From Bacteroidota bacterium (lineage in GTDB: Bacteria > Bacteroidota > Ignavibacteria > OLB7), in the NCBI GenBank assembly GCA_018266795.1, contig JAFDZV010000019.1, forward strand, positions 152,901-216,900: a stretch of 64,000 nt of DNA. The letters run 5' to 3'. The position numbers were made by a program, and so were the translations under genes. Positions 53,007 through 55,469 of the stretch are shown in pieces; position 1 is the first letter of the stretch; the number at the start of each line of letters is the position of its first letter. The notes beneath the pieces are model-generated. The model worked only from the letters and a program-made list of their open reading frames with translations, was not told where the DNA came from and ran no database searches.

Positions 53007-53687
53007 TCAGTTCGCCAGCTGATCATCGAATCGATATCCCATTCCACGTACCGTATGGATCAGCGGCCTGCCATATCCCTTGTCAATCTTGTGCCGAAGA
53101 CAATGCATCAACGACTCGATCACGTTCGAACGGGGATCGAAGTTGATGTCCCATACATGTTCGCCGATTGCCTCGCGCGTAAGCACCTTTCCCTTGTTGA
53201 GAACAAAGTACTCCAACAGCGCAAACTCCTTTGCGGTAAGCATCACCGGACTGCCGCTCCGAACAACCGAACGGCGCGCGGTGTCGATTACGAGATCGCC
53301 CACCTGAATTTCAGATGTGCGGTGATCCGATGTGCGCCTGGTCAGCGACCTGATACGTGCCAGCAGCACGCCGAAGTCGAACGGCTTGGTGAGATAATCA
53401 TCCGCTCCCTGATCGAGGCCGTGAATCACATCGCCTGCCGATCCCAGCGCTGTCAGCATCAAAATCGGTGTGGTATTACCTTCAGAGCGTAACGCGCGGC
53501 TTACAGCCGTTCCTTCCATTTTCGGAAGCATCACGTCGAGCAAAATGAGGTCATAATCGTTCGTGGCAGCAAGCTCATATCCGGCAGCGCCATCATGCGC
53601 AACATCGACGCTGTAGTGCTGAGCCACGAGACCGCGCCTGACAACGTCCGCGATGTTGATATCGTCCTCGACAACAAGGATTCTCAT
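53007..53687 (-). CDS. OmpR-family response regulator
   Basis: 226 residues from the ATG at 53687; the open frame extends upstream but the domain starts here (RILVVEDDINIADVVRRGL). Receiver: acidic pocket EDD, phospho-Asp in LILLDVMLPKMEG (about residue 51), Thr in LMLTALGSAGD, Lys in YLTKPFDF. Winged-helix DNA-binding end: LTAKEFALLEYFVLNKGKVL and the C-terminal hairpin LIHTVRGMGYRFD. It should bind direct repeats when phosphorylated; targets unknown. First gene of the kinase operon. Confidence 0.95.
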   Translation of the reverse strand: MRILVVEDDINIADVVRRGLVAQHYSVDVAHDGAAGYELAATNDYDLILLDVMLPKMEGTAVSRALRSEGNTTPILMLTALGSAGDVIHGLDQGADDYLTKPFDFGVLLARIRSLTRRTSDHRTSEIQVGDLVIDTARRSVVRSGSPVMLTAKEFALLEYFVLNKGKVLTREAIGEHVWDINFDPRSNVIESLMHCLRHKIDKGYGRPLIHTVRGMGYRFDDQLAN

Positions 53688-53750
53688 GAGAATGAAGCAG
53701 TGTGCGAGGGAAGGACCGCGTTCGCCGCGGCTTTGTGCGCGGCAAACACC

Positions 53751-53869: not shown

Positions 53870-53962
53870 CAAATAAAAGAACCGTACAGTTCACCCCTGA
53901 CTGTACGGTTCCGAAATGAAGGCCGAGAGTTGGTGTCCCGGCGTCTTCACAGGGGAATACTC
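53870..53962 (+). ncRNA. Structured element, copy A
   Basis: First of two copies of an element I cannot match to a known RNA family. Order: CAAATAAAA (53870-53878); helix 1, perfect 12 bp (53879-53890 with 53900-53911), loop TCACCCCTG; 10-base link; helix 2 (GCCGAGA 53922-53928 with TCCCGGC 53936-53942, one mismatch), loop GTTGGTG; then CAGGGGAATACTC (53950-53962). The helix-1 loop CCCCTG (53894-53899) is complementary over 6 bases to CAGGGG (53950-53955), so a pseudoknot is possible. No start codon follows at the place where copy B has one. Strand is not settled: read leftwards, helix 1 is followed by TTTTATTTG and would be an intrinsic terminator. Likeness to copy B continues to about 54012. 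Confidence 0.5.
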
Positions 53963-54212
53963 ACCTCGGGCCAACATTGTTCCCATTGTGTACGAAAAAA
54001 TATTTCCCCCTTCGGAGAAGCCGCCAGGACATATCGCAATCCGATCCATTGCCTCCGAACGCAGCTACCGATCTGCAGTTACAGTCGCCAGACGACGCCG
54101 TACGACTTCCATCCCCCAACAGCACTACGTACGACATGGATACCTGCACAGGAGAAACTGCAACCAGTTAGAGCTCTTCAACTCAAGTAGAGGTTTACAA
54201 TTTCCGGGACGA

Positions 54213-54304
54213 CAAATAAAAAGCCCATGCAGTTCACCCCTGACTGCATGAGCTCAATTGAACGCCGAGGGTTGGTGCCTCGGTCATTTCAGAAGGGAAT
54301 ACTC
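54213..54304 (+). ncRNA. Structured element, copy B, in front of the glycosyltransferase gene
   Basis: Second copy, 343 bases after the first. CAAATAAAA (54213-54221); helix 1 (54222-54233 with 54243-54254, one mismatch) with the same loop TCACCCCTG; 9-base link; helix 2 (GCCGAGG 54264-54270 with CCTCGGT 54278-54284) with the same loop GTTGGTG; then AGAAGGGAATACTC (54291-54304). Five base pairs of helix 1 differ from copy A on both sides and stay paired. AAGGG lies 8 bases before the ATG at 54306 and can serve as ribosome site; CCCT of the helix-1 loop can pair with its AGGG, so the fold could hide the start. Read leftwards the helix runs into TTTTTATTTG. Confidence 0.5.
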
Positions 54305-54305
54305 G

Positions 54306-55469
54306 ATGAGCGAACAGATTGTTCCCGATGCGATGAAAATCTTTGCCGGCACTCCGATCGCCGATCACGCTCATTGTTCCAATAGCCGCAGCGATTCGCC
54401 GGTAGCGCCGTGGGCGGAGCGCAAACGCACTATTCGATTCCGGTGGTTATCTTCGGCGATGCTCAAACCGCGACGCAATGCGAATGAGGCCATCCCGCCT
54501 CTCGAAACGACCGCTCCAGCTACCATCGCGCTGTTCCAGCCGGGCCGTCTCGGCGACATGATCCTGACCACTCCCCTGTTTCACGCACTGAAGGCGCAAT
54601 TCCCGGCAACGCACCTGACAGTGATCGCATCGGAGGCATCGGCGTCCATTCCATCCTCCCAGAACGTCGTGGACAGAGTCATCCCGGTTCCCGGGGGGCT
54701 GCTGCGCCAGATACCGTTCCTTGCCTCCACACTGCGGGCCACGACGTTCGACATCTATATCGATATCAAGGACCATCGCTCCACGACATCCCGTCTCGTC
54801 GCGGAAATCATTCACGCCCGGAGGCTGATCGGTCACAGAACCGCCATCGGATCGCACCCGGGAGGCGCGGAGTTGCCGGCGCCCGCTCCCCCCGGCCACT
54901 ACGTGGACAGCGCGCTTGCCCCCATGCAACTGCTTGCCCCGGGTTCCCGGTTCAACCGGCGCCCCATGCTCGATATTCCAACGGCAGCGTACCGTGCCGT
55001 CGATGAGCAGCTCGATCCAGGTGAACATGGCATGGCGGCAATCAACATCTCTGCGGGTGATCCCTCCCGCTACTGGAAGCCCGAAAAGTGGCGTGCTCTG
55101 ATACGGGAGCTAAGCCGCCAATTCAACGTTGTGGTGCTGGCTGCACCGAACGACAGAGGATTGGCCGATGAGATCTGCTCAACGCGGCGCACGGCGCGCA
55201 CGGTAAGAACGGACAGCATACTCGAGGCTGCAGCCGTTGTGGACCGGGCACGCGTGGTGATCAGTCCGGACACTTCGATCGTGCACATCGCGTCGGCGCG
55301 CAATCGCCCCTGTGTGGGACTCTATCCACCCGGCAACGAAAACGCCGCGAGATTCGCCCCGCTGTCCGATCGGCATCGCGTGCTGATGCCTGCACAGGAA
55401 GAGACTCTCGCGGCGATTCCCATGGAAGCCGTGTACGAAGCGGCGCTCGCGTTGACCGGCACCGCATGA
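54306..55469 (+). CDS. Family-9 glycosyltransferase (heptosyltransferase-like)
   Basis: 387 residues from the ATG at 54306 (AAGGG 8 bases upstream). The GT9 domain starts only near residue 70: IALFQPGRLGDMILTTPLFHAL, IDIKDHRSTTSRLVAEI, INISAGDPSRYWKPEKWRAL, and the donor region VVISPDTSIVHIASA with GLYPPGNEN. Such enzymes add heptose or similar sugars to lipid A-core or other surface glycans. The first 50-70 residues have no family likeness and are partly encoded by sequence related to copy A of the upstream element; an ATG at 54459 would remove 51 residues. So either the N-terminus is an added piece or translation begins later. Convergent with the DUF1573 gene, 9 bases apart. Confidence 0.85.
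   Translation: MSEQIVPDAMKIFAGTPIADHAHCSNSRSDSPVAPWAERKRTIRFRWLSSAMLKPRRNANEAIPPLETTAPATIALFQPGRLGDMILTTPLFHALKAQFPATHLTVIASEASASIPSSQNVVDRVIPVPGGLLRQIPFLASTLRATTFDIYIDIKDHRSTTSRLVAEIIHARRLIGHRTAIGSHPGGAELPAPAPPGHYVDSALAPMQLLAPGSRFNRRPMLDIPTAAYRAVDEQLDPGEHGMAAINISAGDPSRYWKPEKWRALIRELSRQFNVVVLAAPNDRGLADEICSTRRTARTVRTDSILEAAAVVDRARVVISPDTSIVHIASARNRPCVGLYPPGNENAARFAPLSDRHRVLMPAQEETLAAIPMEAVYEAALALTGTA

Follow-up and report, generated by a model that had tools for sequence, protein, structure and literature searches.

The csRNAs of Streptococcus are CiaR-dependent sibling small RNAs (sRNAs), encoded by two to six homologous genes per genome that lie both in tandem and dispersed (PMC4211561). Four homologous sRNAs, CcsR1-4, stand in a row under the control of stress sigma factors in Rhodobacter sphaeroides (PMC8307010). 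MicA and RybB are sRNAs that depend on sigma-E (PMC8103513), and FoxI and FoxJ of Fusobacterium act without Hfq or ProQ (PMC11005410).

Here we compare with these systems a locus in a 64,000-nucleotide stretch of DNA from a Bacteroidota bacterium, the whole of which we call the window. The locus very probably carries two tandem sRNA genes, independently transcribed from the minus strand, which belong to a sibling sRNA family so far seen in one bacterial order, a small group of Chlorobiota-like organisms. As in the case of the csRNAs, there are several homologous sRNA genes, in tandem and dispersed, with what appears to be one dedicated regulator; however, the regulator of the csRNAs is a response regulator whereas the promoter here looks ECF-like, and no sequence relation between the csRNAs and the present family was found through Rfam. 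The resemblance to MicA/RybB and FoxI/FoxJ lies in a short sRNA with an ECF-type promoter and its own terminator, but those RNAs come from single genes whose targets are known, and here we find several near-identical copies of a different sequence. CcsR1-4 likewise are homologous sRNAs lying side by side. They are, however, processed from one precursor together with ccaF1 and bind Hfq, whereas in the present family each copy has a putative promoter and a terminator of its own, and no Hfq was detected. The Csr/Rsm sponge RNAs share with the family repeated hairpins, invariant G-rich loops and a multi-copy dosage. CsrA sites carry a GGA motif, which the loop here lacks, and the two systems differ also in that CsrA was not found in the order. 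Both Hfq (PF17209) and CsrA (PF02599) were absent from all five genomes of the order and were detected in control genomes, making an Hfq-assisted or Csr-type mode of action unlikely.

Predicted RNA genes on the minus strand

The preliminary description of this locus had reported two copies of a structured element, 343 bases apart and sharing TTCACCCCTGACTG, GTTGGTG, CAAATAAAA and GGGAATACTC, with five base pairs of the first helix differing on both sides. All of these are present as described, and the two copies (A and B) also share ATTGTTCCC further on as well as GTTCCC, 16 bases past GGGAATACTC. The plus-strand reading given to them did not hold. Among the paired cells of the family alignment, reading on the minus strand gives 44 G.U against a single A.C, and a plus-strand reading turns those 44 into mismatches; the one C.A mismatch that helix 1 of copy B has on the plus strand becomes a G.U pair in the minus-strand reading. 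The T-run lies 3' of the terminator hairpin when the minus strand is read. This asymmetry, together with the side of the T-run and the promoter described below, settles the minus strand. A compensatory change spotted by eye can get the structure right and the strand wrong.

On the minus strand, CAAATAAAA is the U-tract of a terminator formed by helix 1, and helix 2 is the hairpin at the 5' end. Read on that strand, GGGAATACTC gives a −10-like box, GAGTATTC, and the GTTCCC that lies 16 bases beyond it gives a −35-like box, GGGAAC. The elements of the two genes are listed below; for the boxes, invariance refers to the 12 copies found in the source genome (G000) and in another genome of the same genus (G001).

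54321..54326, minus strand: −35-like box GGGAAC of sRNA B, invariant in 12 of 12 copies
54297..54304, minus strand: −10-like box GAGTATTC of sRNA B, separated by 16 bp from the −35 box; all 12 copies keep AGTATTC, with a spacer constant in length and variable in sequence
54259..54291, minus strand: 5' hairpin of sRNA B, loop CACCAAC at 54271-54277; covariation and an invariant loop
54221..54255, minus strand: terminator hairpin of sRNA B, loop GGGGTGA at 54234-54240; covariation and an invariant loop
54214..54222, minus strand: T-tract TTTTTATTT of sRNA B, overlapping the foot of the stem, read from sequence
53979..53984, minus strand: −35-like box GGGAAC of sRNA A, a conserved promoter-like box
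53955..53962, minus strand: −10-like box GAGTATTC of sRNA A, a conserved promoter-like box
about 53950, minus strand: predicted RNA start of sRNA A, placed by its distance to the −10 box
53916..53950, minus strand: 5' hairpin of sRNA A, loop CACCAAC at 53929-53935; covariation and an invariant loop
53878..53912, minus strand: terminator hairpin of sRNA A, loop GGGGTGA at 53891-53897; folding and covariation
53870..53878, minus strand: T-rich tract TTTTATTT of sRNA A, following the stem of the terminator, read from sequence

The same order recurs on the minus strand in the G000 and G001 genes, namely GGGAAC, 16 variable bases, (G/A)AGTATTC, about 4-10 bases, the hairpin with the CACCAA loop, a linker and the long hairpin with the GGGGUGA loop, and a T-rich run closes the gene in nearly all of them. 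The predicted transcript, ~80 nt long, would thus open with a hairpin bearing the loop CACCAA(C); a short linker would join it to an intrinsic terminator hairpin, whose loop is (CA)GGGGUGA and which is followed by a U-tract. For A and B the predicted RNAs would run from near 53950 to near 53870 and from near 54292 to near 54214. This anatomy is directly testable through the predicted ends, the promoter boxes and the two invariant loops.

The next minus-strand gene beyond the pair codes for a response regulator (53007-53693). On the plus strand, if the glycosyltransferase gene starts at the ATG at 54306, its first codons (within 54306-54459) overlap the promoter of sRNA B; the match to family-9 glycosyltransferases lies well inside the protein, and the true start may therefore be further downstream.

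Structure of the family and its promoters

Covariance models found covarying homologues, bringing the family to 14 copies: five in G000, seven in G001 and one each in G003 and G004, two genomes of the same family as the source. Four of the five genomes of the order in our collection thus carry the RNA, G002 being the only one that does not. The five G000 copies are the pair in the window and a triple array on a second contig (C9:145886-146291), whose members are ~145 bp apart and were located by a genome search with the loop and its flanks; the tandem arrangement noticed earlier is in this way borne out. Run against the 6-Mb genome, a model built from the five copies recovered exactly these at E of about 1e-30 and had no other match with E<=1, so that their similarity greatly exceeds chance. 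Copy A had been taken for a possibly decayed duplicate, but with the model it scores 94 bits against 87 for B and is no less intact. The triple array is flanked by msrP and gatC, both on the minus strand, and its position 5' of gatC and kdsB is common to the G003 and G004 copies; the single G001 copy on contig 2 sits 5' of kdsB. The G003 and G004 RNAs each have two successive GGGGUGAG hairpins. At L040:1507-1630 (G004) and at L041 (G003), the loop is doubled within one RNA, as two GGGGTGAG hairpins.

Neither the window nor any of four homologous regions matched an Rfam 15 family at curated (gathering) thresholds, in agreement with the earlier failure to match the element to a known riboswitch, and a relaxed search added only two chance miRNA matches, nothing credible. 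Judged by these scans the RNA family is uncatalogued, belonging to no described Rfam family. A little-studied group, in which neither Hfq nor CsrA was detected, thereby gains an RNA family that Rfam does not contain.

When the 14 copies are aligned by structure, 96.6% of the cells hold standard pairs, a figure that comes from an alignment fitted to the covariance model; in a MAFFT alignment, made independently of structure, 93.0% are paired and the same number of pairs, 14, have changed on both sides. Both-side changes affect 14 of the 23 pairs (40 such cells), a level reached by none of 500 shuffles, and with the partners displaced by a single column only about 50% of the cells, instead of 96.6%, still pair. 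In the terminator helix 10 of 13 pairs have changed on both sides, and both loops are invariant across the 14 copies while the stems vary. Folding of single RNAs gives z-scores of −2.4 to −5.2. The linker and the first hairpin vary slightly in length among copies, which excludes a conserved reading frame. From this pattern of substitution we conclude that the RNA structure is under selection, as had been proposed from the two copies in the window.

Conservation reaches 2.0 and 1.95 bits per column in the two boxes upstream of the hairpins, and the spacer between them, constant in length, averages 0.66 bits. Conserved boxes separated by an unconserved spacer of constant length are the signature of a promoter. 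The 16-bp spacing is found in 12 of the 14 copies, and the GGAAC-type −35 box and the −10 box are common to all 12 G000/G001 copies. In G000 the exact motif occurs only at the five sRNA copies; allowing one mismatch adds two places, and a looser pattern gives extra matches at about chance expectation. A motif almost exclusive to these RNA genes could lead to their sigma factor and its regulon. Boxes of the GGAAC type at −35 are typical of ECF sigma factors, with GGAACTT in E. coli (PMC8103513), and an ECF promoter of the form GGAAC-N16-CGTT has been described (PMC7083833). It is on account of the GGAAC-type −35 box that we infer control by an ECF-type sigma factor; the −10 box AGTATTC differs from the standard described ECF −10 boxes. 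The G003 and G004 copies lack the GGGAAC promoter and have instead a sigma-70-like TTGCTT-N17-TTATAT or GTATAT, so that ECF control would not be a trait of the whole family.

In both G003 and G004, the sRNA lies directly after an ECF sigma gene and another gene (L117:5080-7253 and L118:3112-5288); this intervening gene may code for the cognate anti-sigma factor. Close homologues of the sigma factor (52-56% identity) are present in G000 and G001 and absent in G002, which lacks the RNA. These neighbourhoods and this distribution are no more than suggestive of a link between the sigma factor and the sRNA family. We found no sigma gene under the same promoter, and the upstream regions of the adjacent sigma genes are free of the motif. 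A literature search on Chlorobi sRNAs and ECF sigma factors returned no paper.

Mode of action and alternative readings

With five and seven copies per genome in G000 and G001, each with promoter-like boxes and a terminator hairpin as read from the DNA, the copies have the character of sibling sRNA genes. We suggest that an ECF-type sigma factor would switch these genes on, that several near-identical copies would raise the RNA dose and that the sRNAs would act in trans. The predicted transcription start is at most a few bases from the first hairpin, which would leave the invariant loops CACCAA and GGGGUGA as the main conserved parts exposed. These loops are therefore the likely contact sites, and action in trans is probably exerted through them. 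Antisense pairing of a loop with target mRNAs would be the default guess and, as Hfq was not found, such pairing would be Hfq-independent. A seed search with GGTTGGTG-N0-20-ATG returned 111 and 55 matches, too many to interpret. A kissing contact between the loops, CACC with GGUG, could form in every copy; we do not claim it, both sides being invariant and 11% of shuffled loops pairing equally well.

Four other readings need to be weighed against sibling sRNA genes acting in trans. In the reading proposed from the window pair, the element is a riboswitch-like cis-regulator on the plus strand, in which pairing of the loop with a G-rich block masks the glycosyltransferase start. Copy B does lie just 5' of the ATG at 54306, where GGGAAT could serve as a ribosome site, and the selection on structure would suit such an element. 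The strand asymmetry nevertheless favours the minus strand, as do the promoter boxes at constant spacing and the polarity of the terminator, and on the minus strand the G-rich block lies at the predicted promoter and transcription start. Nor does the pairing persist: the block is GGGGAA and AGGGAA in A and B but GTGAA or ATGAA in the other three copies of the genome. The triple array has no plus-strand gene start downstream, which was the first sign against cis-regulation, and we consider this reading hardly tenable. Tandem premature terminators on the minus strand, acting as attenuators or leaders of the response regulator gene in the window or of gatC-kdsB elsewhere, are improbable. In their favour, a minus-strand gene follows both arrays and the gatC-kdsB position is common to G000, G001, G003 and G004. 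However, every G000/G001 copy has its own predicted promoter, the downstream genes differ from site to site, and the C9 and G001 copies recur as complete promoter-terminator units; the terminator stem, moreover, pairs almost perfectly, and we saw no conserved anti-terminator that could form in its place.

The occurrence of copies both in tandem and dispersed within genomes would also fit a mobile hairpin repeat of the REP or MITE kind, devoid of regulatory function. Against this stand the low number of copies (just 5-7), the polarity given by promoter and terminator, a location 5' of gatC-kdsB common to several genera and stems with compensatory changes around invariant loops, and we saw no insertion hallmarks; such a repeat is very improbable. 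Decoys or sponges, in which the repeated GGGGUGA loops would bind an RNA-binding protein or the ribosomal anti-SD tail and not particular mRNAs, are unlikely. The loop is invariant within a terminator of variable stem, it is present twice per RNA in G003 and G004, and there are many copies per genome. Against a general anti-SD sequence, GGGGUGA pairs at −10.7 kcal/mol, but 3.7% of shuffled loops do as well and the match is thus only modestly above chance; the lack of CsrA in the order and of GGA in the loop also speaks against a decoy. A fuller version, in which a lineage-specific, dosage-amplified decoy family free of Hfq and CsrA would be transcribed under stress from dedicated ECF-type promoters and would alter translation as the GGGGUGA of its terminator, present twice per RNA in a sister genus, binds a protein or the anti-SD, seems to us unlikely.

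Searches beyond the order

A second model, restricted to the transcribed part, gave no further credible members in samples from the class (391 genomes) and the phylum (395 genomes), both searched under strict filters. Inspected singly, weak matches within the class (G103, G350, G301, G228 and further ones) turned out to be ordinary terminators, a terminator beside a tRNA or a hairpin repeat of another kind, and were set aside. A strict pattern of loop, loop and T-run occurred at 59 places in 84,980 genomes, about the number estimated for chance, and among these only the places in Chlorobiota MAG RYN_334 (G001) have the sRNA architecture. A scan of viral contigs gave eight places, one of which (L204) is similar to the family at 24.8 bits. 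This element (L204:20-116, IMG/VR contig 3300044800_000230) has two hairpins, a CACCAA loop and a terminator hairpin with loop GGGGTGA, followed by a T-run, and adjoins an integrase-like gene. We do not claim it as a family member, as it was picked out of a very large scan and may be there by chance. The genome G301, of the same class, carries a different long hairpin repeat (GAGAAACCCCCTAACCCCC...GGGGGTTAGGGGGTTTCTC) at several places (L128, L136, L142 and L145).
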